This document shows positions 43,375 to 61,843 of a DNA stretch of 64,000 nucleotides, one piece after another. How positions within the stretch are numbered: position 1 is the first letter of the stretch; the number at the start of each line of letters is the position of its first letter. The notes under the pieces are model-generated. The model searched no databases. It saw only the letters and a program-made list of their open reading frames with translations, and was not told where the DNA came from. The DNA is from Cytobacillus gottheilii (GTDB lineage Bacteria; Bacillota; Bacilli; Bacillales; Cytobacillaceae): the NCBI RefSeq assembly GCF_900166665.1, contig NZ_LT800494.1, positions 2,043,144 through 2,107,143 on the forward strand. Reading direction: 5' to 3'. Made by a program: the position numbers and the translations under genes.

Positions 43375-43646
43375 TGTGAAAATTATAATCGGCGACGACC
43401 AAAAGAGATGATCCGTGTTGTAAAGGACAATAAAATCTTCTTTTGATTTCTGGTTAAATTGATGCATCATACAGCATGAACCTTTAATTTTCGTTTTGCT
43501 TGGCTCAAGTTGGTGGGTTTAAGCGTATTCTCAACTGTTTAAAAACACCTGAAATAGGACATTTACATAATGTGCATCAGGTGCATAATGTGTTTCCAAA
43601 AGAACAGCATTCCGCTGATTCTTTCATGTTGAAGGAGGAATTATCA

Positions 43647-45866
43647 ATGACGAGTTTAACAGAAGTTGTTAACTTTCAGGAACTGCAGGAAATGTTTCCT
43701 GAACTGCAAATGGAATATTTAGAAAAGAAAGCTGCACAATTAGAAAGCTTAAATGAAAATTCTTTTTTTGATCAGCTGATTCTTGAATGTCTATCCTTTA
43801 TTTCAATGGATGAACCTAATTGGACATATGTGGCAGCACATATGTATCTACAGCAATTATACCGTCATGCAGGTGAGAATCGGGGTTATCATGCAGATCA
43901 AAAATATGGCAGCTTTTATGATCTATTACATAAACTCGTCTCATTAGATATATATGAAAGTAAGCTAATAGAGAAATATGATCGAGCTGAAATCGATGAG
44001 CTTGGACGTTTTATTAACCCAGATAAAGATCAGTTATTCACTTATCTAGGGATTAAGATGCTGGCTGACCGATATTTAGCAAAAGACCGTAAGAAGAACA
44101 TTTATGAATTGCCTCAAGAGCGGTTCATGGTGATCAGTATGATTCTGATGCAAAATGAAGAGCCTTCTCAAAGAGTTGAACTAGTCAAAGAAGCTTATTG
44201 GGCGTTAAGTAATTTATATATGACTGTAGCAACACCGACTATGTCAAATGCTGGTAAAAAGTGGGGCCAGCTTTCAAGCTGCTTTATAGAAACGGTAGAT
44301 GACAGCTTAGATTCTATTTATGACAGCAACACAGATATTGCTGCATTATCAAAGAATGGCGGAGGAATTGGTGTCTACCTAGGGAAAATCCGCAGCAGAG
44401 GCAGTGACATTAAAGGGTTTAAAGGGGCCTCTTCAGGTGTATTGCCATGGATGAAGCAATTAAATAACACAGCTGTAAGTGTTGATCAGCTTGGTCAAAG
44501 ACAGGGAGCGATCAGTGTTTATTTAGATGTATGGCACAAAGATATTTTCTCTTTCTTAGATGCAAAATTAAACAATGGGGACGAGCGTTTACGGACACAT
44601 GACCTTTTCACTGGCATCTGTATTCCGGATTTATTTATGGAAGCTGTTGAGAGTCGTGGAGACTGGCATTTATTTGACCCTCATGAAGTCAGAAGAGTGA
44701 TGGGCTTCTCGCTAGAGGATTACTTCGATGAAAAAGATGGAGAAGGCTCTTTCAGAGAAAAGTATCAAGAGTGTGTTGATAATGAGCAGCTAAGCCGTGA
44801 AACAATACCGGCAATTGAAATTATGAAATCTGTTCTTAGAAGCCAGCTTGAAACAGGAACTCCATTTATGTTCTATCGTGATGAAGTAAATCGTAAAAAT
44901 GCAAATGGACATAAGGGAATGATCTATTGCACAAATCTTTGTACAGAGATTGTTCAAAACCAAAGTGTTACAAAAAGAATAGAGGAATACACAAAGGACG
45001 GCAAAATTGTAATTGAAAAAACGCCTGGTGACTTTGTTGTATGTAATCTTTCTTCTATCAATCTAGCACGTGCTGTCAGTGATTCTGCATTAGAGAGACT
45101 CATTAAGATTCAAGTTAGAATGCTTGATAATGTTATTGATATTAATACGATCCCTGTTATACAAGGACAATTAACAAACCAAAAGTACCGTGCAATTGGC
45201 TTAGGGACATTTGGCTGGCATCATCTGCTTGCGATCAGCAAGATTTCTTGGGAAAGCGAAAAAGCAGTACAATTTGCCGATGAGCTATATGAAAAAATTG
45301 CCTATTTAACCATTCAGAGTTCAATGGAGCTTGCTGCTGAAAAAGATTCTTACCCAGCATTCGAAGGCTCCGACTGGGATACTGGAGCATATTTTGAAAA
45401 ACGCGGCTATCTGAATTCAGAAAGCAGCTTAGATTGGCAAGGGTTAATGGAATCTGTTCAAAAAAATGGGATGAGAAATGCTTACCTGCTGGCAGTAGCA
45501 CCTAATGCTTCAACAGCTCTGATCGCTGGAAGCACACCAAGCATCGATCCAATTTTCAACAAGCAATATTCTGAAGAGAAAAAGGATTATCGTATTCCTG
45601 TAACAGCTCCAGACCTAAACAGTGAGACTACATGGTACTACAAATCTGCCTACTTATTGGATCAAAAATGGAGTATCCTCCAAAATGCGCAGCGTCAAAA
45701 GCATATTGATCAGGCGATTTCATTTAACTTGTATGTACCTAACTCAATCAAAGCAAAAGACCTTCTTGATCTTCATACAACAGCTTGGAAAGAAAAGTTA
45801 AAAACAACTTATTATATAAGATCAACATCATCTGAAATTGAAGACTGTGAATCTTGTTCGAGCTGA
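43647..45866 (+). CDS. nrdA: Ribonucleoside-diphosphate reductase, alpha subunit
   Basis: A 739-residue catalytic subunit of class I ribonucleotide reductase, making deoxyribonucleotides. The active-site pattern CNLSSINLARA, NGGGIGVYLGKIRSRGSDIKG, the Tyr-rich C-terminal part, and redox tail EIEDCESCSS (CxxC) are seen. GGAGG before the ATG at 43647 marks the start in a frame that runs back to 43500. There is no nrdI nearby, which speaks for class Ia rather than Ib, though sequence alone does not settle the metal centre. nrdB follows after 19 bases. Confidence 0.92.
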   Translation: MTSLTEVVNFQELQEMFPELQMEYLEKKAAQLESLNENSFFDQLILECLSFISMDEPNWTYVAAHMYLQQLYRHAGENRGYHADQKYGSFYDLLHKLVSLDIYESKLIEKYDRAEIDELGRFINPDKDQLFTYLGIKMLADRYLAKDRKKNIYELPQERFMVISMILMQNEEPSQRVELVKEAYWALSNLYMTVATPTMSNAGKKWGQLSSCFIETVDDSLDSIYDSNTDIAALSKNGGGIGVYLGKIRSRGSDIKGFKGASSGVLPWMKQLNNTAVSVDQLGQRQGAISVYLDVWHKDIFSFLDAKLNNGDERLRTHDLFTGICIPDLFMEAVESRGDWHLFDPHEVRRVMGFSLEDYFDEKDGEGSFREKYQECVDNEQLSRETIPAIEIMKSVLRSQLETGTPFMFYRDEVNRKNANGHKGMIYCTNLCTEIVQNQSVTKRIEEYTKDGKIVIEKTPGDFVVCNLSSINLARAVSDSALERLIKIQVRMLDNVIDINTIPVIQGQLTNQKYRAIGLGTFGWHHLLAISKISWESEKAVQFADELYEKIAYLTIQSSMELAAEKDSYPAFEGSDWDTGAYFEKRGYLNSESSLDWQGLMESVQKNGMRNAYLLAVAPNASTALIAGSTPSIDPIFNKQYSEEKKDYRIPVTAPDLNSETTWYYKSAYLLDQKWSILQNAQRQKHIDQAISFNLYVPNSIKAKDLLDLHTTAWKEKLKTTYYIRSTSSEIEDCESCSS

Positions 45867-45885
45867 TTTGAAAGGGGAAATACGC

Positions 45886-46926
45886 ATGGCCACTATTAAT
45901 AAAAGAAAAATTATGGATGAAACTGCACCGAACCGGTCAACAGCTATCATAAATGGCTCAACTTCAAATATATTAAACTGGGATGATGTCCGCTATTCTT
46001 GGGCCTATCCTAAATACAAAAAAATGCTGGCTAACTTCTGGACGCCATTCGAGATTAACATGTCTCAGGATATTAAGCAGTTCCCTGAATTAACGAAGGA
46101 CGAGCAAGATTCTTTCTTGAAAATCATTGGTTTATTAGCGCTGCTTGATAGTATCCAGACAGATTACGCAGGCAAGGTTGCCGATTATCTAACAGATTCA
46201 AGTCTGTCAGCATTAATGATTATTCTTGCACAGCAAGAGGTTATTCATAATCACTCTTATTCTTATGTTCTCTCGAGTATTGTTTCAAAACAAAAGCAAG
46301 ACGAAGTATTTGAATACTGGCGTACCGAGGAAACATTAGTAAAGAGAAATGAATTTGTGACAAATGGATATAAAGATTTTGCAAAGGATCCAACTGCAGA
46401 AAATCTATTAAAGTCAATTGTTTATGATGTTGTATTAGAAGGTTTATTCTTCTATTCAGGATTTGCATTTTTCTACTATCTGGCAAGAAATCAAAAAATG
46501 GTTTCCACATCCACGATGATTAACTATATTAATCGTGATGAACAAATTCATGTGGATTTATTTGTTAAGATCTTTAAAGAAATACTGGCGGAAAATCCTG
46601 AATTGAATACACCAGAACTAAAAGCGTTTGTTAAAGAAACGTTTAAAGAAGCAGCAGAGCTTGAAATTGAATGGGCTCGCACAGTAATCGGAAATAAATT
46701 AGAGGGTGTTCTCCTGAGCGATCTTGAAGCATATATTAAATTTTATGCCAATGTACGAAGCAACCAGCTTGGATTTGAACGACCATTTGAAGGCTTTAGA
46801 ACAAATCCATTGCGATGGATCGTAGCTTATGAAGAAGTTGACCAGGGCAAATCAGACTTTTTTGAGCAAAAATCCCGTCAATATACAAAAGTGAATCAAG
46901 TCGACAACGGCTTTGATGAGCTTTAA
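45886..46926 (+). CDS. nrdB: Ribonucleoside-diphosphate reductase, beta subunit
   Basis: A 346-residue radical-generating subunit. Metal ligands are visible in LLDSIQTDYAG, AQQEVIHNHSYS, VLEGLFFYSGFAFFY and DEQIHVDLF. The C terminus YTKVNQVDNGFDEL resembles the tail that docks on the alpha subunit. AAAGGGG precedes the ATG at 45886. It is the last gene of the operon; a dispersed repeat begins ten bases after its stop and its hairpin is the likely terminator. Confidence 0.92.
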   Translation: MATINKRKIMDETAPNRSTAIINGSTSNILNWDDVRYSWAYPKYKKMLANFWTPFEINMSQDIKQFPELTKDEQDSFLKIIGLLALLDSIQTDYAGKVADYLTDSSLSALMIILAQQEVIHNHSYSYVLSSIVSKQKQDEVFEYWRTEETLVKRNEFVTNGYKDFAKDPTAENLLKSIVYDVVLEGLFFYSGFAFFYYLARNQKMVSTSTMINYINRDEQIHVDLFVKIFKEILAENPELNTPELKAFVKETFKEAAELEIEWARTVIGNKLEGVLLSDLEAYIKFYANVRSNQLGFERPFEGFRTNPLRWIVAYEEVDQGKSDFFEQKSRQYTKVNQVDNGFDEL

Positions 46927-47870: not shown

Positions 47871-47904
47871 TATAATATAACTTATAGGAAACATTACCTA
47901 TAAG
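47871..47904 (+). promoter_or_regulatory. Predicted -10 with adjacent inverted repeat before dgcW
   Basis: TATAAT at 47871-47876 is followed by CTTATAGG (47881-47888), an 8-base gap and CCTATAAG (47897-47904). The position at the expected transcription start suggests an operator or a 5' stem. No clear -35 was seen. Confidence 0.5.
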
Positions 47905-47931: not shown

Positions 47932-50403
47932 ATGGAACTTACTAGCTATTACAATATAACACTTGTATTCATTTCTATTTTAATTGCTGTTATTGCTTCA
48001 TATGCATCTTTAAATATTGTCAGCCGCCTAAGAAGATCTTCAGGCATTGTTCGTTATATTTGGCTTACTGCTGGTGCTTTTTCGTTAGGATTTGGTATTT
48101 GGTCTATGCACTTTATTGCCATGTTGGCACACCATCTTAGTATTCCTGTTATGTACGACACCTTTCTTGTGGTTTTGTCAATTGTTTTGGCAGTAATTGC
48201 ATGTGCTGTTGCTTTTGCAATTGTAAGCATAGGCTTAAATCGAGGATTGTATATTTTTGTTGGTGCTGCTTTTATTTCAGCTGGGATTGCTCTCATGCAT
48301 TATGTAGGAATGGCAGCCATGGTAATGGATGCTGCCATTATTTATGATCCATTTTTATTCGTTTTATCAATTATTATTGCTTTTGTTGCTTCATTAGCGG
48401 CTTTATACTTATTCTTTTATTTTGAAAAGAATGCCAATCAAAAATACACTCATCTTAAAAAGATAGCAAGTTCTTTAGTTATGGGTGCAGCCATTTCCGG
48501 CATGCATTTCACTGGAATGGCTGCAGCGTCATATCAGTCTATGGGAATCGGCCACCATCACGCACACGCTCATACTTCAGCTGCCATTAATACAACCGTA
48601 ATGGGCTTTAGTATCGGAATTGGCATGTTTCTACTCCTCGCAATTAGTTTAGTAAGTACATTTCTAGATAGAAGATTTCAGCAAAAAGCTGATCAGCTTC
48701 AATTTTTAGATAATATGTATCAATCGATTATTATGACTGCGAATGATGCAATCGTTTTAGCTGACAGTGAAGGAACAATTATTGCTTGGAACAATGCAGC
48801 GGAAGCTATATTCTTCTATAAAGAAGATGAGATTATTGGTAAGAATTTAGAAAAAATCATTCCTGCTAAATATCACAAAGCACATAGTAAAGGATTGAAG
48901 GATTATGTTGCTTCTGGAAAAGAACAAATTATAGGGAAGTCGGTTGAGTTAGAAGGAATGCGAAAAAATGGAGAAGTATTCTCTATTGAATTAACTTTAT
49001 CTACATTGACGAATGAAGAAAATACGTATTTCAGTGGAATCATTCGGGATATATCCGAACGGAAAGAGAATGAGAGGAAAATAACGGAGCTTGTTTATCG
49101 TGATCCATTAACAAACTTACCGAATAGAAGGTTCTTGAATAATTACCTATCCTTAAGTATAGAGCAAGCAGCTGTAAATCATCAGTCATTGGCAGTTCTT
49201 TTTATTGATTTGGATCGCTTTAAATATATTAATGATACACTCGGCCATAGTGTCGGTGATCAGCTTCTCGTTGAAGTATCTAAGCGGATGTCTAAATATA
49301 TTGAGAAAAAGGACATGCTTGCCAGGCAGGGTGGAGATGAGTATATATTAATCTTCCCGCAAACAAATCATCAGCATGCAGCGAAAATTTCACAGCAGAT
49401 TTTAGATGAATTATTAATGCCCTTTCATTTTGAGGATAACGAACTGTTTATCTCAGCTTCAATTGGCATCAGTATGTACCCCGAGGATGGCGGAGAAGCT
49501 GATCTGCTTGTGAAAAATGCGGATACCGCGATGTACAGAGCAAAGGAAATTGGAAAAAACAATTTTCAGTTCTTTACATCAGATATGAATGAACTGATGG
49601 CTAAAAAAATGAGACTTGAGGTTGGGTTACGTAAAGCCCTCATTAATAATGAGCTTGAACTGTATTATCAGCCGCAAATAAAGGTAAACAATGGTCATAT
49701 AAAGGGAGTTGAAGCACTCATCCGCTGGAACCATCCCAAGATGGGCATCGTTTCGCCTGCTGAATTTATTCCACTCGCAGAAGAGACGGGATTGATCATT
49801 CAGATTGGAAATTGGGTAATTGAAACAGCATGCAGACAAGCGAAGGAATGGGAGATACAGGGATATTCTCCAGTAAGAATGAGTATAAATATCTCAGCAC
49901 GTCAATTCCAGCAGACTTCTTTCGTGGATACTGTAATGGAAATTATTGAAAATACTAAAATTGATCCACAATATTTGGAACTTGAATTAACAGAAACTAT
50001 TGTACAAGACCCTGTTTATGCGATTCCTGTTTTGAATCAATTGAAAGATATGGGCATCAAATTATCTTTAGATGATTTCGGTACAGGATATTCTTCATTA
50101 AGCTACTTAAAGTCCTTTCCGCTTGATACATTAAAAATTGACCGTTCATTTATTAGTACAGTTAACGAAAGCGGGAAAGACGCAGCGATTGTCAAAACGA
50201 TTATTAATATGGCTAATAGCCTTGATCTAAATGTAATAGCTGAAGGTGTAGAAACAAATGAACAGCTGTTATCTTTAAAACAGGATGGCTGTGACGAATA
50301 TCAGGGATACTTGTTCAGTAAGCCTGTCAAAGCACTTGCAGTACAAGAATTACTGCAAAAATGTATGGAAGAAAAGTCAATAGAACAAATAGTTGAAGTT
50401 TAG
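47932..50403 (+). CDS. dgcW: MHYT-PAS-GGDEF-EAL protein, DgcW-like
   Basis: An 823-residue membrane enzyme that can make or break cyclic di-GMP. The MHYT sensor (about 1-245) has seven membrane segments and the His motifs SMHFIAM, ALMHYVGM and GMHFTGM, suggested to sense O2, CO or NO through a metal. A PAS domain follows (about 255-370), then GGDEF with GGDEY (467-471) and EAL with EALIRW (594-599), DDFGTGYSS and VIAEGVE; both catalytic centres look usable. The layout matches B. subtilis DgcW (YkoW). The cassette downstream suggests its product controls a polysaccharide. Confidence 0.93.
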   Translation: MELTSYYNITLVFISILIAVIASYASLNIVSRLRRSSGIVRYIWLTAGAFSLGFGIWSMHFIAMLAHHLSIPVMYDTFLVVLSIVLAVIACAVAFAIVSIGLNRGLYIFVGAAFISAGIALMHYVGMAAMVMDAAIIYDPFLFVLSIIIAFVASLAALYLFFYFEKNANQKYTHLKKIASSLVMGAAISGMHFTGMAAASYQSMGIGHHHAHAHTSAAINTTVMGFSIGIGMFLLLAISLVSTFLDRRFQQKADQLQFLDNMYQSIIMTANDAIVLADSEGTIIAWNNAAEAIFFYKEDEIIGKNLEKIIPAKYHKAHSKGLKDYVASGKEQIIGKSVELEGMRKNGEVFSIELTLSTLTNEENTYFSGIIRDISERKENERKITELVYRDPLTNLPNRRFLNNYLSLSIEQAAVNHQSLAVLFIDLDRFKYINDTLGHSVGDQLLVEVSKRMSKYIEKKDMLARQGGDEYILIFPQTNHQHAAKISQQILDELLMPFHFEDNELFISASIGISMYPEDGGEADLLVKNADTAMYRAKEIGKNNFQFFTSDMNELMAKKMRLEVGLRKALINNELELYYQPQIKVNNGHIKGVEALIRWNHPKMGIVSPAEFIPLAEETGLIIQIGNWVIETACRQAKEWEIQGYSPVRMSINISARQFQQTSFVDTVMEIIENTKIDPQYLELELTETIVQDPVYAIPVLNQLKDMGIKLSLDDFGTGYSSLSYLKSFPLDTLKIDRSFISTVNESGKDAAIVKTIINMANSLDLNVIAEGVETNEQLLSLKQDGCDEYQGYLFSKPVKALAVQELLQKCMEEKSIEQIVEV

Positions 50404-50714: not shown

Positions 50715-51476
50715 ATGAAAAGATCCATTCTTATTAATATGGTTATAGTTGCTATGATTAGTATTTTAGGTGTCATCTTCCTGACAGATTTGCCATTCTA
50801 CAAACTGGCATTAATTCTGATTGCTTCATCCATCCTGCTTCTTTCTTTCTCCAGCATTCAATACTTATTCCCTATCATTATTTCAGTCATTTTAGGATTC
50901 GGTGCCTTTTTAACAGGGTACGCTTTTTTAGCAGCTCACCAAGAGAATATTCAGATTGAACTTATGTATATTCATTTGTTATTAACTGCTTTTTTACTGC
51001 TTTACTGGGTTCTTGTACATTATTTAAAAAAGACAGTAAATGAAAGCAATCAGTTGTACGAAAAAGTAAAATCCCTTGAGAAATACGATGTGACAACAAA
51101 ATTATTAACAACCCACGAGTTTCTTGACCAGTCAAAAATCGTCCAAAAAGGTGCAGCTAGAAGAAATGAATCGCTTTGGCTGTTAGTTTTGGAATTGAAC
51201 CATGAAAAAAAGACCACATTAGCTACATTAAAGCATAAACTCTCTCAAATTGTATTCTCTTCTATTCGTGAAGAATACGATTTTGTTACTGCCACAAACA
51301 AAGGAATTCTCATTCTGGTGCAGAATACAAATGAGAATGGGGTTGAAGTAGTGTTACAGAGGATTCATTCGAAATCACATACCGTTTTTAATCAGATCCG
51401 ACCCCCTTATCAATATAAATGTCTGGAGATCATATCCATTCAGCAAATCATAGAAGAAGTGGAGGAAAAGAAATGA
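50715..51476 (+). CDS. Membrane protein with degenerate GGDEF-like domain
   Basis: A 253-residue protein with four hydrophobic segments (about 8-105), a short coiled region, and a C-terminal domain whose pattern follows GGDEF proteins: YDVTTKLLTTHEFLDQ for DxLTGLxNRRxF and EYDFVTATNKGILILVQNT in place of RYGGDEF. The catalytic GGDEF is gone and the inhibitory-site Arg of RxxD appears to be Glu (EEYD). It resembles YdaK of B. subtilis in layout. It overlaps the GT2 gene by four bases and is probably a regulatory partner of it. Confidence 0.75.
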   Translation: MKRSILINMVIVAMISILGVIFLTDLPFYKLALILIASSILLLSFSSIQYLFPIIISVILGFGAFLTGYAFLAAHQENIQIELMYIHLLLTAFLLLYWVLVHYLKKTVNESNQLYEKVKSLEKYDVTTKLLTTHEFLDQSKIVQKGAARRNESLWLLVLELNHEKKTTLATLKHKLSQIVFSSIREEYDFVTATNKGILILVQNTNENGVEVVLQRIHSKSHTVFNQIRPPYQYKCLEIISIQQIIEEVEEKK

Positions 51477-52702
51477 CAAGTATCTTAACGATGATTATGA
51501 TTTTCTTTTGGATTCTGCTTCTTTTTTATTCAGCCGTGACAATAAGCGGTTTATGGTACAGAGTACGGTATAAGCATCCAGCACCGCTCGAGAAATATCC
51601 AAGTATAGCCTTATTTATCCCTGCTTATAATGAAGGAGTCGTTATTAGTGATACTTTAAGTGCTATGGGAAAACTTAACTATCCCGGGAAACTTGATGTT
51701 TATTTGCTGGATGATGGTTCCAAGGATGATACCGGAGTTATTGCCAAGGAGTTTTCAGAGGCATTTGCAAACATTCATTATATTCCTGTTCCAGATGGTG
51801 AGCCTAGAGGAAAGTCACGTGTTTTAAACTATGGATTGAAAATCTCCACTTCAGATTATTTTATTGTTTATGATGCTGACAATCAGCCGGAATCAGATGC
51901 TGTCACAAAACTAGTGGAAGCTGCTGAAACAACAAAGGGTGCAGCAGGGGCTGTTGGCTATGTGAAGACACAAAACAAAGAAACCAATATGTTAACCAGA
52001 ATGATTACACTGGAATTTCGGGTGTTTCAGCTTTTAATGCAATGTGGAAGATGGTCGTTATTTAAGCTGGGATCGTTAGCTGGCACTAATATGCTTTTAA
52101 GAAGAGAAGTGATTGAGGAACTTGGCGGATACGATGTTTATGCTTTAGCAGAAGATGCAGAGTTAACGGTCAGATTAACTGCAGCTGGTTATTTGCTGCC
52201 GGTAGTTCCGACATCTTGTACATGGGAACAAGAGCCTGAAAGTCTAAAGGTGTTTATTAAGCAAAGAACACGCTGGTTAACTGGCAATATTTATTTGCTG
52301 GAAAAGTCATTAAGGGAATTTTCCTTTTGGAAAGGAAGAACATTTATTCTCTCTCTGCAGCATTTATTAACATATGCTGTATTTATTGGACTGCTTCTTT
52401 TCTCACATATCTTTTTCCTGCTTAGTATATTGGGTGTTGACATTCCGAATATTGCAGCACCGCTACTTATGTTATGGTTTATGAGCTATATTGTGTACAG
52501 TGCTCAGCTGTTAAGTGCTATTGTCATAGATGATGATATTTCTCTTCGAAATGTAATCTACGTGTTTATTATGTATTTTACCTATGCACAATTATTTGTG
52601 ATCTTGCTGATTAGAAGCTTGTATACTTATATTAAAAGCAGAATGAAAGGGCAAACTGTTTCATGGGATAAAACACAGCGTTTTAAACAGAAGGCGATGT
52701 AA
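51473..52702 (+). CDS. Processive GT2 glycosyltransferase
   Basis: A 409-residue membrane glycosyltransferase like those that make and secrete beta-glycans. One N-terminal membrane helix, GT-A domain with FIPAYNEGVV, LDDGSKDDT, YDADNQPES (DxD), AEDAELTVR and KQRTRWLTGN (QxxRW, the processive motif), then about four C-terminal helices. Start ATG at 51473 overlaps the preceding stop, with GGAGG upstream. Polymer unknown; B. subtilis YdaM is a plausible relative. Confidence 0.9.
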   Translation: MTSILTMIMIFFWILLLFYSAVTISGLWYRVRYKHPAPLEKYPSIALFIPAYNEGVVISDTLSAMGKLNYPGKLDVYLLDDGSKDDTGVIAKEFSEAFANIHYIPVPDGEPRGKSRVLNYGLKISTSDYFIVYDADNQPESDAVTKLVEAAETTKGAAGAVGYVKTQNKETNMLTRMITLEFRVFQLLMQCGRWSLFKLGSLAGTNMLLRREVIEELGGYDVYALAEDAELTVRLTAAGYLLPVVPTSCTWEQEPESLKVFIKQRTRWLTGNIYLLEKSLREFSFWKGRTFILSLQHLLTYAVFIGLLLFSHIFFLLSILGVDIPNIAAPLLMLWFMSYIVYSAQLLSAIVIDDDISLRNVIYVFIMYFTYAQLFVILLIRSLYTYIKSRMKGQTVSWDKTQRFKQKAM

Positions 52703-53694
52703 TGAAAAAATATAGTCTAATGATACTTAGTGTCGTGTTTGTACTATTTGCTTTGTACTTTTGGAATAAAAGCGGGGACGGTGCTACCGTGCAAAAACAT
52801 GTAAAAAAACATTATATGAATGATTCTCTTATTTCTACCTATCAAACCGGAGAAGATCAGCAATATTTATCAGAAAGTCTTGGATTATATATGAATTATT
52901 TACTGCTGGCAAAAGATAATGCAGGGTTTCGTGAGCAAGTAGACGTCCTAAAAACAAGATTTTTGTTATCAAATGAAAAGGGCATATATATACGGTGGTC
53001 GCTTGATCAGCAAGCAGCCGCTAATGCCTTAATTGATGATGTAAGGATAATTCAGGCACTTTTCAAAGGTTCATCATTATTTGATGAAGAAGAGTATTAC
53101 AAATTAGCTGATGATCTAAAGAATTCTTTATTAACCCTTCAGTATAAAAATGGAATTTATCGTGACTTCTCAGATTGGACTACAGGTGAACCAGCAGAAA
53201 GGATAACATTAAGCTATTTAACAGATGACTTTTTTTTAACCTTCACAGATACGGATACTACAGAAACACTGCTTTTAAATGCATTAGATGATGAAAATCC
53301 TTTTTTCCCAGAGTATTACGATAACGGCGAGCAAGCTTATCAATATAGCAATAAGGTTCATATGGTGGATCAGCTGTTAATTGCAGCCAACAAAGTGAAA
53401 CGTGGACAGGACCTTCCCTTATTCAATAATTGGCTGCTCTCACAATGGGAGGAAAAAGAAAAAGTTTTTGGCCGTTATGATAGAACCAGCGGAGAGCCCC
53501 TCGTTTCATATGAATCATTGGCTGTCTATGCGTTTGCCTATGATTATTTAGTGTTAATTGGTGAACAGCGAGTTGCAGAAAGTATGTGGAAACATGCAGT
53601 TGCACTTGAACAATCGATTGCTTCTGAGGATGAGCATTTCTTTGATTATATTTTATTTCATACCATTAATGACTTTAGCACCTCTCCATTATAG
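52702..53694 (+). CDS. GH8-like glycoside hydrolase, membrane-anchored
   Basis: A 330-residue protein with an N-terminal membrane segment (about 5-21) and a helical domain resembling GH8 (BcsZ/YdaJ) endoglucanases. SESLGLYMNYLLL would carry the catalytic acid Glu and ALIDDVRIIQALF the region of the catalytic Asp, and LSYLTDDFF and NKVHMVDQLLIAA follow in order. GH8 enzymes accompany many cellulose-type synthases. The start overlaps the GT2 stop. Activity is inferred from weak motif matches. Confidence 0.72.
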   Translation: MKKYSLMILSVVFVLFALYFWNKSGDGATVQKHVKKHYMNDSLISTYQTGEDQQYLSESLGLYMNYLLLAKDNAGFREQVDVLKTRFLLSNEKGIYIRWSLDQQAAANALIDDVRIIQALFKGSSLFDEEEYYKLADDLKNSLLTLQYKNGIYRDFSDWTTGEPAERITLSYLTDDFFLTFTDTDTTETLLLNALDDENPFFPEYYDNGEQAYQYSNKVHMVDQLLIAANKVKRGQDLPLFNNWLLSQWEEKEKVFGRYDRTSGEPLVSYESLAVYAFAYDYLVLIGEQRVAESMWKHAVALEQSIASEDEHFFDYILFHTINDFSTSPL

Positions 53695-55129: not shown

Positions 55130-55165
55130 AACCTTAAGAGTTTACTTTTCTTAAGGTTTTTTTTA
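55130..55165 (+). terminator. Intrinsic terminator
   Basis: AACCTTAAG, loop, CTTAAGGTT and seven T residues after the nitroreductase gene. Confidence 0.88.
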
Positions 55166-55274: not shown

Positions 55275-56723
55275 ATGTCTGAACAAGACAAAGTAGCAAC
55301 AGGTATTACGGGGTTAGATGAGGTCCTTTATGGAGGTCTTCCGGCAGGATCTATATCTTTAATACAAGGATCTCCTGGTACAGGTAAAACAACATTGGGT
55401 TTACAATTTCTAATTGAAGGTGCCCGTAAGTATAATGAGGCGGGTATTTATATAACATTTGAAGAATTGCCAGAACAATTATATCGTGATTCTGCTTCTT
55501 TCGGCTGGGATCTAAAAGACCTGGAAAAAAACAACCTGCTTAGAGTTATATGTATACAGCCAGAAGTGCTTATTGATCATATTACAAAGCCTAATGGACT
55601 GTTAGAAAATGTCATTAAGACAATCAACTGTAAGAGAATTGTACTGGATAGTGTCAGTTTATATCGAGTATTAAACACCGAAGCAGAAGCGAGAAATAAA
55701 GTGTATTTATTAAGAAATGTTTTTAAAAAGTGGGGTTTAACAACACTCCTCATCAATGAAATAGCAGGATTGCAAAATCCACTGGAACAAAACTCATTTG
55801 AAAATTACTTAAGTGACGGTGTTATCCATTTATCACTAAGCAAGTTTATGGATAAATATAGGTCAAGACAATTAGAAATTCTTAAGATGAGAGGCACAAA
55901 GATTGTAGAAGGTGAACACCGTTTTAAATTTTTAGATCATGGAATACATGTGATACCAGCTCTCTCAATGGCTGAAGATAAATTAATTATTAAAAATTCA
56001 TCTGATACGATTTCTACAGGTATTCAAACGTTAGATGATATTTTATCAGGCGGTTTACAAAGAGGAACGACCTTTACTATTGATACAAACAGTAAAGCAA
56101 ATTACCGTTACATTGTTACAGCTTTGCTGGCCAAACGATTGGAAGCTGGTGATAAGCTCATTTCTATGATGACTAACACCTCTACAATCGATACGATTTC
56201 TTTTGCTCTTAGTGAATATGGAATTTGCCTTAACGACTTGATCAAAGAGCAAAAAGCCTATTTTGTAGATTTATTTAAGCGTGATATTCCAGTAAATTCG
56301 AAGCAATATCATTCTGGAATTATTCAAATTACGGATTTTTCAGAAGAGGGTTTTCGTAAACAATTGCAAGAGAAGTTTTCAGATATCATTCAGACCAATT
56401 TAGCAAGCGGAGGCAACTGGTTTGTTTATTATGACTTAAATGTTCTTATCAGTCTTTTAGGAATTTCCTTTACACAGCGATTTTTCGCTGAAGAAGCTTT
56501 ACGCTGCAGATTAAATGGGATTACGATGCTTGCTCATATTAATTTTGCTGAAATCAGCCAAGCAGCAGGCTCTGTTTTTGAGCGTGCCAGCAATGGCATC
56601 ATTCGCACATGGGTGGACGGGAATTATCAGCTGCTTCAAGTGACGAAATCACCAACTGGAAGAATGTCGGCTCCCCATATTATTGAAAATATTGATGAAA
56701 AACCATTTTTGCGATTAATTTAA
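55275..56723 (+). CDS. KaiC-like RecA-superfamily ATPase
   Basis: A 482-residue cytosolic protein with two tandem KaiC-type RecA folds. The first has Walker A GSPGTGKTT (residues 32-40), catalytic Glu pair in TFEELPEQL (63-64) and Walker B RIVLDSVS (Asp125). The second (about 248-470) starts GIQTLDDILSGGLQRGT as a KaiC domain should, but its P-loop region reads DTNSKANYR without GK(S/T), so it probably does not bind ATP normally. No kaiA or kaiB is nearby, so circadian function is not implied. The downstream gene encodes a LuxR-type regulator. Confidence 0.88.
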   Translation: MSEQDKVATGITGLDEVLYGGLPAGSISLIQGSPGTGKTTLGLQFLIEGARKYNEAGIYITFEELPEQLYRDSASFGWDLKDLEKNNLLRVICIQPEVLIDHITKPNGLLENVIKTINCKRIVLDSVSLYRVLNTEAEARNKVYLLRNVFKKWGLTTLLINEIAGLQNPLEQNSFENYLSDGVIHLSLSKFMDKYRSRQLEILKMRGTKIVEGEHRFKFLDHGIHVIPALSMAEDKLIIKNSSDTISTGIQTLDDILSGGLQRGTTFTIDTNSKANYRYIVTALLAKRLEAGDKLISMMTNTSTIDTISFALSEYGICLNDLIKEQKAYFVDLFKRDIPVNSKQYHSGIIQITDFSEEGFRKQLQEKFSDIIQTNLASGGNWFVYYDLNVLISLLGISFTQRFFAEEALRCRLNGITMLAHINFAEISQAAGSVFERASNGIIRTWVDGNYQLLQVTKSPTGRMSAPHIIENIDEKPFLRLI

Positions 56724-56735
56724 GGGGATAAGAAT

Positions 56736-56978
56736 GTGACCAATGAAAAAAGTAATCTCTTAATTCAAATGGAATGTATGTTATTTTTCGAGGAAAATCA
56801 ATATGCTATGGAAACAGTCAGCAGTATTAGCATGCGAATTGGGAGAAGACCGGAGGATATTGCTTTGGTCTTAAATCAGCTGACAGTTTTAAATGTTGTA
56901 GATGTTTTCGGTGAAGGAGACTCTGCGATTTATTGTTATCGAATCCCTGATGTACAAAGTGATGTGATAATTAAATGA
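56736..56978 (+). CDS. Small winged-helix-like protein
   Basis: An 80-residue protein. SISMRIGRRPEDIALVLNQLTVLNVVDVFGEGDSAIYCY reads as helix-turn-helix plus wing, so it may be a small DNA- or protein-binding wHTH. GTG start with AAGGGG upstream. It lies 12 bases after the KaiC-like gene and overlaps the next one by four bases, so all three form an operon. Confidence 0.65.
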   Translation: MTNEKSNLLIQMECMLFFEENQYAMETVSSISMRIGRRPEDIALVLNQLTVLNVVDVFGEGDSAIYCYRIPDVQSDVIIK

Positions 56979-59134
56979 TTGATCAGAAAGTACTGCAGAA
57001 TCTACATGAATTATTGGGTGCATATGCAAAAATCAGCGGTTTATCGATATTAATAATAGATGAAAACGGAAAAAAACTGCTTCCGACTATGCTTGGCAAA
57101 AGCTTAAAGCCGCTGTTCGGAGAACTTGACAGTATTGAAACCTTCTATTTAGATATTATAAAAAAAACAGCTACAGAAGAGTTTACATTTATTTATAATA
57201 TTGCTATAGACAAAGTGAAAATCATCATATCTCCTCTTCATACACAAACTGGAGAAAAGTATTTTATTTTAGCTGGACCTATTGTTGAAGAAGATACAAA
57301 AGATGCTTTATTGAATAATATTATGTCAAGTTCTCTGCCTTCAGAGTTGAAGCAGAGTCTGACCTATAATATCAGTTTGTCAAAAGAATTGACGCCAGCA
57401 GAAGTGAATGAAAAAATGTCCATCATTTCAAGCTTGAGTCAAAACGTTCGGTATATGTTAAATATCCAGCTCAATATTGGCTGGATTAAGGATAATTTAA
57501 CAGCTATAATCGATCAGGGGTGTTCACCAGAAATTCCTTCATTAGAACAGCTGATAAAGGATTTTCACGATCATACAGAAGTATTAGATACAATTTGTTA
57601 CGCAGAAAAAAGCAGCAATGACGATTATATTGTGACATATGCATTTGGTGACTATGCCAGCCATTTAAAAGGCATTACTTTTCGCCACGGGGAAGGTTTT
57701 TTAGGACTTGCCAGTGTGTCTGATGGACCAAAAGACTGGAGTTCGATTGAACGTGATCCAAGGAGTGCACTTTTTATAGATTTAGACATGCCAATCCCAG
57801 AAAATCTCTGGTGCAATTCTATACAATTATATGGGCATACAACGGGCATTATCTTTACACTTGATTTTAATAAAAGTAAATTAGTGGCTGTACAAAATTA
57901 TATCCGCAATATGATTGTTTCCATTCTTACTTCGCGCATGAATCTAGTTATTATGAGTGAATCATACTTGAAACAAAAACAGCGCTTGGCAGGCTTAGTG
58001 GAGATTGCAGGGTTTATTAAATCATCCGAAAATATGCAAAAGATTATGTATGCTCTAGTTGATAGCTGTATCACTTTATTTCCTAAACCGATTTCTGCTT
58101 TAATGTATATAGCACAAGATGTACAGAGAACAAAAGTAAAAATTGTTTCTAGGGGTTATTCAAAAGACAAACAGAAACAATATGTACAGGAATCCTCTAA
58201 GATTTTATTTACTACCTCCGTTAAAAAAGCGAATAAACCGATTGTGTCGGTTCGAGAGCAGGGTAAAATCTATCAATATGATTTTCCGCTTGTCATTCAT
58301 AATGAATTATATGGTGCACTTACACTTTCATGCCATCATTCTGCTGATATGGAGGAATGTCTTGGCTTAATGTCCACACTTGTCACTATTGCCAGTATGC
58401 ATATAGAAAAGATGTGTGAAAAAGGTGAAAGTGGAAATGTAGCAGATGAACTTTCAAATATGTTATTCAAAAGTTTGAAAGAACAAAACATGAGCACTTA
58501 TGAACATCTAAAAACACTTGAAATGCATGTTTCATCCGTTTTAACTTCCAATCCTCATCTGGCTGGTGATCATGAACTGATCAAAAGAGCGATACGTTTA
58601 TCTTCTTTTTCAGCTGAATTTCTAAAGAGCAGTCCGTATTTAGCAAAAGAAGCGTTCTTGCTTGAGCAGTGTAAACAGATGGAGAAGCAGGAGGCAGTGC
58701 CTGAGGATTCGGCAATGGAATTACTATTTATGTTCGTAGCCCTTCAGTATGATACACAGAAAATGGCATTAAAAACGAATCTTCTCAATAAGGTCGGCCT
58801 TAATGAAGGTAAAATTGAGTCCATTAAAGAGCTGTTAGAGGAACAAGGGGTATTAGAAGCAGAGCTTCAGTTAGGAGCAGAGACCGAAAAGGTTCAGAAT
58901 CGAACTCTTATTGAAGATATTGTGAAGCAGTATGGGTTAACAGCAAGAGAGAAAGATATTTTCCAAGGGATTCTGCATGCAAGCAGCAATAAAGAAATTG
59001 CTAAGAACCTTTATATAAGTGAGCATACAGTAAAGAATCATATTACCAATTTATTTAATAAGCTTGGTGTAACAGAAAGAGCCCAGGCGATTGCTCTTGT
59101 ATTAAATTCTAGTTTAAACAATGAGAAAAGCTAA
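56975..59134 (+). CDS. PocR/GAF-domain LuxR-type transcription regulator
   Basis: A 719-residue regulator. The first part (about 5-170) is PocR-like: LQNLHELLGAYAKISGLSILIIDENGKKLLP. GAF-like regions follow (about 190-330 with GITFRHGEGFLGLASVSDGPKDWSS, and about 340-480 with VEIAGFIKSSENMQKIMYALVDSC). The C-terminal HTH (about 655-715) is typical NarL/LuxR: LTAREKDIFQGILHASSNKEIAKNLYISEHTVKNHITNLFNKLGVTERAQA. No phosphoacceptor receiver domain is present. A terminator follows. The CalY/SipW operon starts 350 bases downstream and may be a target. Confidence 0.85.
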   Translation: MIDQKVLQNLHELLGAYAKISGLSILIIDENGKKLLPTMLGKSLKPLFGELDSIETFYLDIIKKTATEEFTFIYNIAIDKVKIIISPLHTQTGEKYFILAGPIVEEDTKDALLNNIMSSSLPSELKQSLTYNISLSKELTPAEVNEKMSIISSLSQNVRYMLNIQLNIGWIKDNLTAIIDQGCSPEIPSLEQLIKDFHDHTEVLDTICYAEKSSNDDYIVTYAFGDYASHLKGITFRHGEGFLGLASVSDGPKDWSSIERDPRSALFIDLDMPIPENLWCNSIQLYGHTTGIIFTLDFNKSKLVAVQNYIRNMIVSILTSRMNLVIMSESYLKQKQRLAGLVEIAGFIKSSENMQKIMYALVDSCITLFPKPISALMYIAQDVQRTKVKIVSRGYSKDKQKQYVQESSKILFTTSVKKANKPIVSVREQGKIYQYDFPLVIHNELYGALTLSCHHSADMEECLGLMSTLVTIASMHIEKMCEKGESGNVADELSNMLFKSLKEQNMSTYEHLKTLEMHVSSVLTSNPHLAGDHELIKRAIRLSSFSAEFLKSSPYLAKEAFLLEQCKQMEKQEAVPEDSAMELLFMFVALQYDTQKMALKTNLLNKVGLNEGKIESIKELLEEQGVLEAELQLGAETEKVQNRTLIEDIVKQYGLTAREKDIFQGILHASSNKEIAKNLYISEHTVKNHITNLFNKLGVTERAQAIALVLNSSLNNEKS

Positions 59135-59170
59135 TGTGTGTTAATTCCCAACATACATTAGCTTTTTTTT
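59127..59170 (+). terminator. Intrinsic terminator
   Basis: AAGCTAATGTGTGTT, loop, AACATACATTAGCTTTTTTTT overlapping the regulator stop. Confidence 0.9.
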
Positions 59171-59207
59171 CTGAAAAATAATAGGAAAACAGGCTTTTTC
59201 CATCAAG

Positions 59208-59223
59208 GTTCCTATATAGGAAC
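59208..59223. promoter_or_regulatory. 16-bp perfect palindrome before the CalY operon
   Basis: GTTCCTATATAGGAAC is a perfect palindrome, and its half GTTCCTATA recurs at 59332-59340. They lie in the 315-base gap before the calY-like gene and resemble a two-site operator. A weak cre-like TGAAAGCGCTGCC is at about 59233. No clear sigma-A promoter was recognised. Confidence 0.55.
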
Positions 59224-59486
59224 AGAGAAAAGTGAAAGCGCTGCCTCCTGTGCTGTCGCTGGGTCGATGAAGAATAAATTTGAGCAAATATGACTCTAAA
59301 TCTAGCATTTTATAAAAAGAGTAGGGAAGCAGTTCCTATACCAGACAAGAAAGATTAGGAAATACCGGCTATACTTTTTTTTACAATTTTTCTTCATAAT
59401 TGAAACAGTAGTAGTGATTATGACAAATGTACTATATAAAACAATTGCTTATCAGGCGACGATCAAATTTGAAGGAGAAATGTATC

Positions 59487-60032
59487 ATGTTCAAAATGAA
59501 TAAAACAAAAAAACTAAGCTTGCTGATTTTTTCTAGCATGACTGTCATTGCATTTATATTAGTTCAATCTGTTTCTCAATCAACAGCTTATTTCACAGCA
59601 AATACAGCTAATGCAGGAGATCAAATTAATACAGGGAATTTAGCTTTAGCGCTAGGAGATGGAGAGAGTGTCACAAGTCCTTTCACTGTAAACAATTTCG
59701 TTCCTGGTGATTATATTGAAAGAACTTTTACAGTAAATAACACTGGTAGTGTAGATTTCTCATTGGATGTTTCTTCTGCAGGAACAGATCAGTCTGTATT
59801 ATGGTCTGATGAGACAAAGGGACTCCAAATTACGATAAATGATGGACCGGCAATGCCAATTAGTAAACTAGAAAAAGAAATGGTCGGAAATGTGCTGGCT
59901 TCTGGATTAACAACGGTAAAAGTGAAAATTCAATTGCCGGTAGAAGCAGATAATGAATTTGAAAACAAAGCGCAAAATTTTCAGCTGATATTTACAGCTG
60001 CTTCTATTGAAGGAGTGAAACGAAATGATTAA
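59487..60032 (+). CDS. TasA/camelysin (CalY) family fibre protein
   Basis: A 181-residue exported protein. Signal sequence about 1-34, with TAYFTANTANAGDQINTGNLALAL after it, the pattern of TasA/CalY proteins, then FVPGDYIERTFTVNNTGSVDFSLDVSS, a beta-sandwich. Such proteins form extracellular fibres of the biofilm matrix and are cleaved by SipW-type peptidases, encoded next. GGAGAAATG-type site precedes the ATG at 59487; the frame extends to 59427. Confidence 0.85.
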   Translation: MFKMNKTKKLSLLIFSSMTVIAFILVQSVSQSTAYFTANTANAGDQINTGNLALALGDGESVTSPFTVNNFVPGDYIERTFTVNNTGSVDFSLDVSSAGTDQSVLWSDETKGLQITINDGPAMPISKLEKEMVGNVLASGLTTVKVKIQLPVEADNEFENKAQNFQLIFTAASIEGVKRND

Positions 60033-60510
60033 GGTAAAAAGCAAAACATATCTTGCTGCTATTCTTGCCGTTTTCCTTCTCGTTTGTGTAGCTGGGAGTT
60101 ATTTGCTGGGATATCGTTCAACTATCGTTATTCATGAAAGCATGGAGCCGGCGATCCCAAAATGGTCACTTGTCGTCTTGCAGACGAAAAACATTAAACC
60201 AGAGAAATATGATATTGTTCAATTTCGAGTGGAAGGAAAATATACACCTGTTGTGCATCGAATCGTTGAAGAAAGTGAAAATCATTTTGTTACACAAGGT
60301 GATGCCAATCCAATTACTGACAGTAATGAGCTTACAGTCAAGGACATTGACGGGGTATATGTCACACACATTCCTATTCTAGGCATTATATTTTTCTGGA
60401 TTCAGCAATTTAATTATTTAATCATCGGCAGTCTAATCCTAATTAGTGTTGCTTTAGGGCTTTCCCTAATGAAAAAAGAAAAAATGATTCCAAATGAAGC
60501 TGAAGTTTAA
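60025..60510 (+). CDS. sipW: SipW-like type I signal peptidase
   Basis: A 161-residue membrane serine peptidase of the ER/archaeal-like (S26B) group. Order: N-terminal membrane segment, catalytic Ser in HESMEPAIPKWSLVV, His in YTPVVHRIVEE, conserved VTQGDANPITDSNE, and a second C-terminal membrane segment (IFFWIQQFNYLIIGSLILISVALG). That layout is the SipW type that processes TasA. It overlaps the CalY-like gene by eight bases. Confidence 0.9.
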   Translation: MIKVKSKTYLAAILAVFLLVCVAGSYLLGYRSTIVIHESMEPAIPKWSLVVLQTKNIKPEKYDIVQFRVEGKYTPVVHRIVEESENHFVTQGDANPITDSNELTVKDIDGVYVTHIPILGIIFFWIQQFNYLIIGSLILISVALGLSLMKKEKMIPNEAEV

Positions 60511-61162
60511 AATTTTCTTAACGACAGTAGCCATTTTATTTCTTTTCTGTCTGAATGTGTATTCTTATTATGAGGATGCCAAAAGAACAGATATGAAGAT
60601 AAGTACATCTTCAGGGGGCCTATTCTATTTTAAAGCAACTTTAGGTGCAGCTAAAAATGTGGATGGGCAGTTTGTAGGGAAAGAATTGTCCAACATTGAG
60701 GAAACGGTAAATGGAAAAAAGGTGAATCAAACCTTTGCCTTCGATCTTGGCAAGCTGGCGAGACCGGCATTGGTTTCCGTTGTATTATTAAGCGGTGATT
60801 TAACTTACGAATATACGGATATATTACAAATTAAAAATAAATCAACTGAAGAACTGAATGTTTCCTTGGAAATGGCAGATCTTTCACTGCCGAATAGTGT
60901 AAACAGCATGAAAAATTGGATACTGCCGAGATTTGCAGTAAGCAATACAAAAACGGCGATTCTAAAGCCAGGTGAGAAAACCGCTATACATGTAAGTGCA
61001 ATTGTAGGGAAGAGAGTGTTATTATCTTATGAGACCGTCGGATTAGGGGTTTATAGCGGTTTATTAAAGATCAATACTCATCAAAAAAACGGGCAGACAA
61101 GTTCTGTTCAGTACAATTTAAGCACTGAAATAATAGATGGAATATTTTTGGGTATATATTAA
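60494..61162 (+). CDS. Exported protein of unknown function in the CalY/SipW operon
   Basis: A 222-residue protein with an N-terminal signal or anchor (about 4-24) and a beta-rich body: LQIKNKSTEELNVSLEMADLSLP, AILKPGEKTAIHVSAIVGKR, VYSGLLKINTHQKNGQT. The body recalls Ig-like DUF916-type or WxL-linked proteins, but no W-x-L motif is seen. Overlaps sipW by 17 bases, so it is likely a third matrix component. Start chosen at the ATG overlapping the sipW end. Confidence 0.65.
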   Translation: MKLKFKIFLTTVAILFLFCLNVYSYYEDAKRTDMKISTSSGGLFYFKATLGAAKNVDGQFVGKELSNIEETVNGKKVNQTFAFDLGKLARPALVSVVLLSGDLTYEYTDILQIKNKSTEELNVSLEMADLSLPNSVNSMKNWILPRFAVSNTKTAILKPGEKTAIHVSAIVGKRVLLSYETVGLGVYSGLLKINTHQKNGQTSSVQYNLSTEIIDGIFLGIY

Positions 61163-61200: not shown

Positions 61201-61487
61201 GAAGCCGGGACATAAGGATTAAACGTTAATAGAACCGAATGGTTAGGAAGCTCATCTTTCTAATCATTCGGTTTTTCAATGTTTATTTATAAAGGATACC
61301 TTTAATCATGAGTAAAATGGAGCAGAAGACAGTGACTCCTGCGAGAAATTCAGGGGTGCCTAGGAGATTCAGCTTCCTCCACGCGGAAAGTGAGGACCTG
61401 CAGCGCAGGTGGACGTGCCTGTTTTAAATACCGAAACGAGGACATGGAGTATTCGTGTGTTTTATAAAAACCTTAATTTGCATTAAG
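61201..61487 (+). repeat. Dispersed MITE-like repeat, copy F (degenerate right end)
   Basis: Left end GAAGCCGGGACATAA, hairpin ACCGAATGGTTAGGAAG / CTTTCTAATCATTCGGT (61235-61275), a core with GACTCCTGCGAG and CGCGGAAAGTGAGGACC, but no recognisable right terminal repeat. It starts 39 bases after the operon stop. From 61488 to 61742 follow AT-rich DNA with GTTTCCTTAGGAGAC-like stem at about 61546 and the inverted repeat TCTCAAAATA / TATTTTGAGA (61670-61700). Confidence 0.78.
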
Positions 61488-61796: not shown

Positions 61797-61843
61797 GTAA
61801 AATAAGATTATGATAATGCATGAACAAAAAGGAGAACTTTATA

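Follow-up and report, generated by a model that had tools for sequence, protein, structure and literature searches.

The window analysed here is a 64,000-nucleotide stretch of Cytobacillus gottheilii (contig NZ_LT800494.1 of a 4.78-Mb genome; all coordinates are window positions). The analysis centres on a head-to-tail trio of forward-strand genes encoding a KaiC-like ATPase (55275–56723, 482 residues, PF06745), a small protein that we call W (56736–56978, 80 residues, GTG start) and a regulator that we call R (56975–59134, 719 residues). Judged from sequence comparison, these three genes form a regulatory cassette that is conserved among Bacilli. We regard it as probable that the cassette is a local one-component switch on the neighbouring operon, lacking a receiver domain and coupled to a KaiC-like protein, with interchangeable outputs that belong to the surface lifestyle. 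Control of the adjacent operon is the best reading because the cassette recurs in front of surface-appendage or cyclic di-GMP (c-di-GMP) genes and because the loci share a DNA site. In C. gottheilii the probable target of the cassette is an additional, second group of genes for biofilm fibres, located immediately downstream.

The six open reading frames on which an earlier, sequence-only reading of this DNA was built are all present where it had claimed them, and its view of the first three as one operon stands: 12 bp separate the KaiC-like gene from W, W and R overlap by 4 bp, and the order KaiC-like/W/R is the same at all 38 loci of our main survey. The nitroreductase gene upstream of the cassette ends with its own terminator-like hairpin (55130–55158). 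The survey loci (cited below, where needed, by our L numbers and positions within each locus) were fetched with a profile of the KaiC C-terminal domain and in part with the peptide DTNSKAN; they come from Bacillales/Paenibacillales (Paenibacillus, Brevibacillus, Cohnella, Gordonibacillus and many Bacillaceae), and 18 further loci were also compared. The KaiC gene is split into frames in L055, and the regulator of L063 is truncated by the end of its contig. Across 397 genomes of the order, the KaiC C-terminal domain occurs in 17: the full trio is present in the C. gottheilii genome and in ten others, a sister type described below in five more, and a degenerate match (L113) in the last. The cassette is sporadic in the genus, since four of 36 genomes carry it; the other three cassette-bearing Cytobacillus have a Tad pilus beside it.

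The genes that follow the cassette are of a few recurring kinds. A Tad pilus operon adjoins it at eight of the 38 loci; in C. oceanisediminis this operon shows Pfam matches above cut-off to DUF192, Peptidase_A24, TadE, Tad, RcpC, T2SSE and T2SSF, and a match to the Flp pilin slightly under cut-off. A GGDEF/EAL/HD/kinase-cluster gene lies no more than 5 kb downstream at 20 loci, against 4 of 38 upstream, and Pfam assigns GGDEF or EAL to 14 of these 20 and HD_5 to six. At three loci, all from Paenibacillus, a giant BslA-type gene directly follows the cassette. The remaining seven have none of the Tad, GGDEF/EAL/HD or BslA types in the stretch examined. Our generalisation is that surface-lifestyle genes accompany the cassette and that the window, with its fibre operon, offers one example of this. 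Two of the giant genes were scanned (L042: 13470–19457 and L043: 13359–20714); in both, the product is an exported protein that combines a BslA domain with Ig-like repeats, and the L042 protein has an SLH domain in addition. Spo0E-like genes are found soon after the cassette in L051 (13483–13698), L069 (14104–14274) and L039 (14177–14353), a possible link to the sporulation phosphorelay.

The shared DNA site was counted over 45 loci (the window, 37 of the 38-locus set and seven more). Within 330 bp after R, 23 of the 45 carry the everted half-site pair AATAGGAA-N4-TTCCTATT (TAGGAA-N4-TTCCTA, at most one mismatch; hereafter the N4 site), compared with a mean of 0.095 and a maximum of 2 in 200 dinucleotide-shuffled sets; of 350 intergenic stretches elsewhere in these loci, seven carry it. 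The peak in spacing is sharp: 23 loci at N4 and no more than five at any other spacing or orientation. When any orientation and a gap of 0–10 are allowed, 27 of the 45 loci match, against 76 of 2649 other windows, and a leave-one-out matrix places 28 of the 45 above the 99% level of shuffles. The N4 site is present in 10 of the 14 named genera; L073 and L055 have no site after R. Extending the search to the target gene, a post hoc step, adds L060, L067 and L070, whose sites lie 355–637 bp from the R stop, and with L060 included all eight Tad loci carry the N4 site. Imperfect repeats of ~70 bp fill the stretch between the regulator and the site in L060 (13092–13420), which puts the site at +355. 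Among the seven control matches, one precedes an MCP gene near the cassette (L051), one precedes a Spo0E-like gene (L098) and two follow a second, KaiC-less regulator gene (L048 and L069, the latter before an MCP gene). These second R-family regulators are encoded divergently from the cassette (L048: 7922–9829 and L069: 6982–9138, both on the reverse strand).

In the window itself, the gap between R and the fibre operon holds a perfect palindrome, GTTCCTATATAGGAAC (59208–59223), composed of head-to-head TTCCTA/TAGGAA half-sites, which we consider a candidate operator of the fibre operon. The sequence-only reading had singled out this palindrome; it is real, and it shares its half-sites with the site that recurs across loci. 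The sequence TTCCTATATAGGAA occurs once in the whole genome, and of 20,000 shuffles of the 292-bp gap, 24 produce an exact pair of half-sites in one orientation or the other. In all four cassette-bearing Cytobacillus, one of the 4–6 perfect inverted pairs of the genome sits just after R; cassette-less Cytobacillus have 3–5 such pairs, elsewhere in the genome. A perfect inverted pair follows R in L062 as well. An intrinsic terminator lies over the stop codon of R (59123–59169, forward strand; 20-pair stem, −23 kcal/mol, z = −9.1, T tract). Because this terminator is strong, the fibre operon (59427–61162) is probably a separate transcript with its own promoter and with its control region in the 292-bp gap. 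An Rfam scan of 46–63 kb gave no riboswitch match at gathering score, and a sigma-70 promoter scan of the region was uninformative (16 sites, 26 expected).

The best N4 site of the window is found at another gene. The candidate operator TATAGGAAACATTACCTATA (47883–47902, one mismatch) lies 30 bp before a gene for an MHYT-PAS-GGDEF-EAL protein of c-di-GMP turnover (47932–50403, forward strand; Pfam MHYT, PAS, GGDEF and EAL). It is the top match in the window to a matrix built from the other loci (13.6 bits, the next being 7.9) and one of seven N4 sites with at most one mismatch in the entire genome. This gene is a probable second target of the cassette; at 14 of the 38 loci a gene of the GGDEF/EAL type comes directly after the trio.

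Several observations weigh against a switch that acts on its neighbouring operon. The N4 site within 330 bp is missing from 22 of the 45 loci, including 12 of the 13 from Paenibacillus. The perfect palindrome of the window belongs to the inverted type, which is not common beyond Cytobacillus and L062, and the window's own everted copy between R and the fibre genes, GTAGGGAAGCAGTTCCTATA (59321–59340), is weak: it has two mismatches, its matrix score of 6.4 is under the 99% shuffle level of 9.2, and it falls outside the 15 best matrix matches of the window. The seven N4 sites of the genome compare with 4–11 in ten cassette-less Cytobacillus, so there is no enrichment; this background-level count fits a local site and lends no support to a wider regulon, and a regulon of many sites was rejected on this ground. 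Co-occurrence and a fusion of W to a LuxR-type domain (see below) are the only ties of the KaiC-like protein and W to R. The cassette loci share common ancestry, and their counts are thus not independent. Finally, the window is the single instance in which TasA/SipW genes adjoin the cassette: its TasA, SipW and exported proteins have no BLAST match (E ≤ 1e-3) among the open reading frames of the 38 and the 18 further loci. The sequence-only reading had named two outcomes that would count against it, rare adjacency of the two operons in relatives and unchanged calY expression on deletion of the regulator; the first of these is what the neighbourhood survey found. A conserved pairing of the KaiC cassette with TasA/SipW is accordingly rejected, the exported protein moreover being found, among 61 relatives and 397 genomes of the order, in its own genome only. 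The earlier idea of a switch for matrix fibres survives in part: the conserved unit, the DNA site and the surface or c-di-GMP neighbours speak for it, and the absence of the TasA/SipW pairing from all 38 and all 18 loci speaks against it.

These same observations bear on a different assignment of the target, in which the cassette is a c-di-GMP and lifestyle regulator, the MHYT-GGDEF-EAL gene is its true target, and TasA/SipW lies alongside by chance and has its own control. In its favour, no other kind of neighbour is as common as GGDEF/EAL genes (14 of 38), the highest-scoring N4 site of the window precedes the GGDEF gene, the N4 copy before the fibre operon is weak and the TasA/SipW adjacency is unique. 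We nevertheless consider this assignment rather unlikely, since the fibre operon is preceded by a perfect palindrome that shuffling seldom reproduces, placed as in the Tad-linked Cytobacillus cassettes, and since the terminator puts that palindrome in the fibre operon's own promoter region.

It is less likely still that the DNA site is a 3' or autoregulatory signal of the cassette itself, or is recognised by some general regulator, such as a GerE-like or stress factor, with the trio acting elsewhere. Such a role would account for the position of the site within about 100 bp of the R stop at most loci and for the occurrence of similar sites at background level elsewhere in the genomes. It fits poorly with the following: the 300 bp before KaiC contain no N4 site at any of the same loci; in L060, L067 and L070 the site is far from the R stop; in L060 it stands before the Tad operon, and the GGDEF/EAL gene of L067 begins about 300 bp beyond the site; and the second regulator genes of L069 and L048, which have no KaiC partner, are also followed by a similar site, in L069 before an MCP gene.

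A second element, GAA-N5-GGKGAT, emerged downstream of the N4 site from a motif search on 20 of the 23 sequences, near-duplicates having been dropped (log-likelihood 97.5, against 38–48 in six shuffled sets). It is present 20–90 bp after the site in 18 of the 23 loci, about 31, 40–43 or 48–51 bp from the start of the first site, that is, with a phasing of ~10 bp. The match in the window, GAAATACCGGCTAT (59359–59372, forward strand), is weak, at 2.1 bits compared with 8.9 to 20.5 at other loci. In the Tad group the element is near the likely −35 (assigned by eye), a location that would suit activation. The element could be a W site or part of the promoter; that W binds it is our guess.

R carries a LuxR-type helix-turn-helix (HTH) domain (GerE, E = 2.5e-17), which is found in all 29 relatives (28 cassettes and one paralogue). 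Its core, SEHTVKNH, is nearly fixed, with S682 and H684–H689 invariant in the 29 rows. No receiver domain was detected by Pfam at E ≤ 1, in agreement with the sequence-only reading. The PocR/GAF label that this reading had attached to R is borne out for GAF: GAF_2 is matched in 26 of the 29 relatives, and the model of the window's R contains two GAF folds (residues about 164–336 and 326–490, Z about 16). PocR is matched in 16 of the 29; neither family is matched by Pfam in the window protein itself, and its PocR-like N-terminus is assigned from the relatives. A fold search with the whole of R covers mainly residues 164–488, and a helical region (490–650) separates the GAF folds from the HTH.

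W has no match in a Pfam search, and it models as a winged-helix protein, as had been suggested earlier: the AlphaFold model has a pLDDT of 88.6 and the element order H-H-H-E-E, and the top Foldseek matches are mostly winged-helix proteins (Zalpha and ArsR-type regulators) with weak E-values, the best being 4.9e-3. When PDB sequences were searched with the profile of W, no clear match emerged (best E = 0.0069). The possibility of a W-like domain within R was rejected, the profile comparison probabilities being below 2%. In the sister type (L106–L112; seven cases, from six genomes) the gene after the KaiC-like one encodes a protein of 148–155 residues in which W is fused to a LuxR HTH, and the W profile matches all seven fusion proteins (E about 1e-12 to 1e-17). 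The strongest indication of joint action by W and the LuxR HTH is this fusion. A second W-like gene is located immediately 5' of a GGDEF/EAL gene in L067 (13451–13690) and L075 (13230–13493), and similar short open reading frames lie ahead of a GGDEF gene in L097, L099 and L103.

The KaiC-like protein matches PF06745 (E = 3.9e-65) in two stretches, which correspond to two RecA-like (KaiC) domains, and its profile aligns with both KaiC halves of 8zn5. The N-terminal domain has an intact P-loop (GSPGTGKTT) and keeps the FEE motif. The C-terminal RecA-like domain has no P-loop and has DTNSKAN in its place. In 29 aligned rows GxxGxGKT occurs in the first domain only, and the second domain of type A reads DTNSKAN or DTNSKSN. 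The conservation of DTNSKAN in the 38-locus set is biased, as the same peptide formed part of the search; the full-length KaiC-like proteins found by profile, independently of this motif, likewise have a single P-loop. The protein stays far under the KaiC equivalog cut-offs (TIGR02655: 144.9 versus 546.25 bits; NF006799: 205.3 versus 408 bits). KaiC-type ATP-dependent autophosphorylation in the second domain is unlikely because the P-loop is absent there. Family membership might suggest that the protein is a clock component and that the cassette times matrix production over the day; the lack of a P-loop in the second RecA domain argues against this, and we give the idea hardly any credence.

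Taking these features together, we suggest the following scheme for the local switch. R would sense small ligands through its N-terminal domains (GAF/PocR) and would bind the TAGGAA half-site pairs that lie in the next operon's promoter, perhaps activating rather than repressing it. R would have W and the KaiC-like ATPase as co-encoded partners, the latter with a single functional ATP site, its second RecA domain being dead. In the likeliest scheme a KaiC ring, according to its ATP-bound or hydrolysis state, would hold or release W and R and so gate their action at the promoter; the single conserved P-loop may point to such an ATP-state-driven mode of working. The outputs would have been swapped between genomes: Tad pili, c-di-GMP enzymes or a BslA-type surface protein elsewhere, TasA/SipW and MHYT-GGDEF-EAL here. 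We put forward only tentatively the most specific version, a plug-in KaiC unit that would be a novel type of bacterial control device, driven by ATP and free of any phosphorelay, in which the ring with the dead second domain gates W and R, these two co-occupy two conserved promoter elements spaced by about 30, 40 or 50 bp and so facing the same side of the DNA, and the outputs are exchanged in evolution.

The proposed target in the window has the composition that the sequence-only reading had given it. The first gene (59427–60032, forward strand) encodes a TasA/CalY-like, SipW-dependent fibre protein (PF12389, 26.5 bits with a gathering score of 22.5), which is below the cut-off of the SipW-dependent family TIGR04090 (24.2 versus 60 bits); from the sequence its likelier start is the ATG at 59487, after AAGGAG. 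The second (60025–60510, forward strand) encodes a SipW-like signal peptidase of the archaeal/ER type (TIGR02228, 59.6 versus 51.85 bits), far below the SipW equivalog NF046067 (38.1 versus 190 bits). The third (60494–61162, forward strand) encodes an exported 222-residue protein that has no Pfam or NCBIfam family and, among 61 relatives and the 397 genomes of the order, was found in its own genome only; it is possibly a minor part of the fibre. A canonical cluster is present elsewhere in the genome (a SinR-like gene, a SipW-like peptidase and three PF12389 proteins), and the fibre protein of the window is 26–31% identical to those of this cluster; the operon is thus an extra, divergent second fibre system. 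The two peptidases are 27% identical.

The region from 47 to 61 kb, where the GGDEF/EAL gene and a glycosyltransferase operon lie together with the cassette and the fibre operon, is a variable interval, because in seven of nine relatives examined the same flanks (genes at 43500–46926 and a DeoR-type gene at 61820) enclose a very different gene content; in the remaining two, at least one flank is absent from the stretch or contig. The region is not marked as foreign by its composition, the G+C content being 34–37% throughout. The operon at 50715–53694, which adjoins the MHYT-GGDEF-EAL gene, encodes a membrane protein, a GT2 glycosyltransferase and a 330-residue protein; similar sets occur in L127–L130, and we take it to be reminiscent of the yda exopolysaccharide operon of B. 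subtilis. Downstream of the fibre operon, a stretch richer in G+C (61320–61440) presumably resembles an interspersed repeat of bacilli.

To our knowledge, KaiC-like ATPases are common outside cyanobacteria and their roles are mostly obscure. Makarova, Galperin and Koonin are said to have proposed in 2017 that they are signalling hubs in Archaea; the cassette is alike in pointing to KaiC-like signalling outside clocks and differs in belonging to Bacillota and in having a defined candidate target site. To judge by its title, a 2023 study by Terrettaz reportedly links KaiC-like proteins to stress resistance and biofilm in Pseudomonas, again a bacterial connection of KaiC-like proteins with biofilm, in another phylum. 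The tapA-sipW-tasA and calY clusters of Bacillus, which are controlled by SinR, likewise pair a fibre protein with a SipW-type peptidase; the operon of the window differs in being second, divergent and located beside a KaiC cassette. CsgD also controls a fibre operon, and R has the LuxR-type HTH of CsgD, GerE and NarL; it differs in its PocR/GAF/GAF sensor, which stands in place of a receiver-like domain, and in its co-encoded KaiC-like ATPase and W.

The sequence-only reading knew of no described system of this kind, and for bacteria our literature searches agree: KaiC together with TasA and SipW, KaiC with PocR in a relevant sense and, in listings, a KaiC biofilm operon of Bacillota were not found. 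The claim does not extend to archaea. In Haloferax volcanii the KaiC-like protein CirA and CsmR, whose genes are close together, act on archaellum and pilin genes, and CirA is thought to modulate CsmR post-translationally (PMC13286277). The resemblance, a KaiC-like protein and a transcription factor encoded nearby that act on surface-appendage genes, is clear from the parts of that report available to us; in these parts CsmR is Lrp/AsnC-like and has no LuxR, PocR or GAF domain, the genes do not form a three-gene operon and no shared operator is followed across species (PMC13286277).

In many bacilli that can be cultured, the cassette thus supplies a bacterial KaiC-like protein for which two DNA-binding partners are likely and for which a candidate site and a defined target operon can be named; the role of a KaiC-like protein therefore becomes directly testable. 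It also raises the possibility that bacilli switch on pili, matrix fibres and c-di-GMP enzymes by a path separate from both SinR and two-component regulators.

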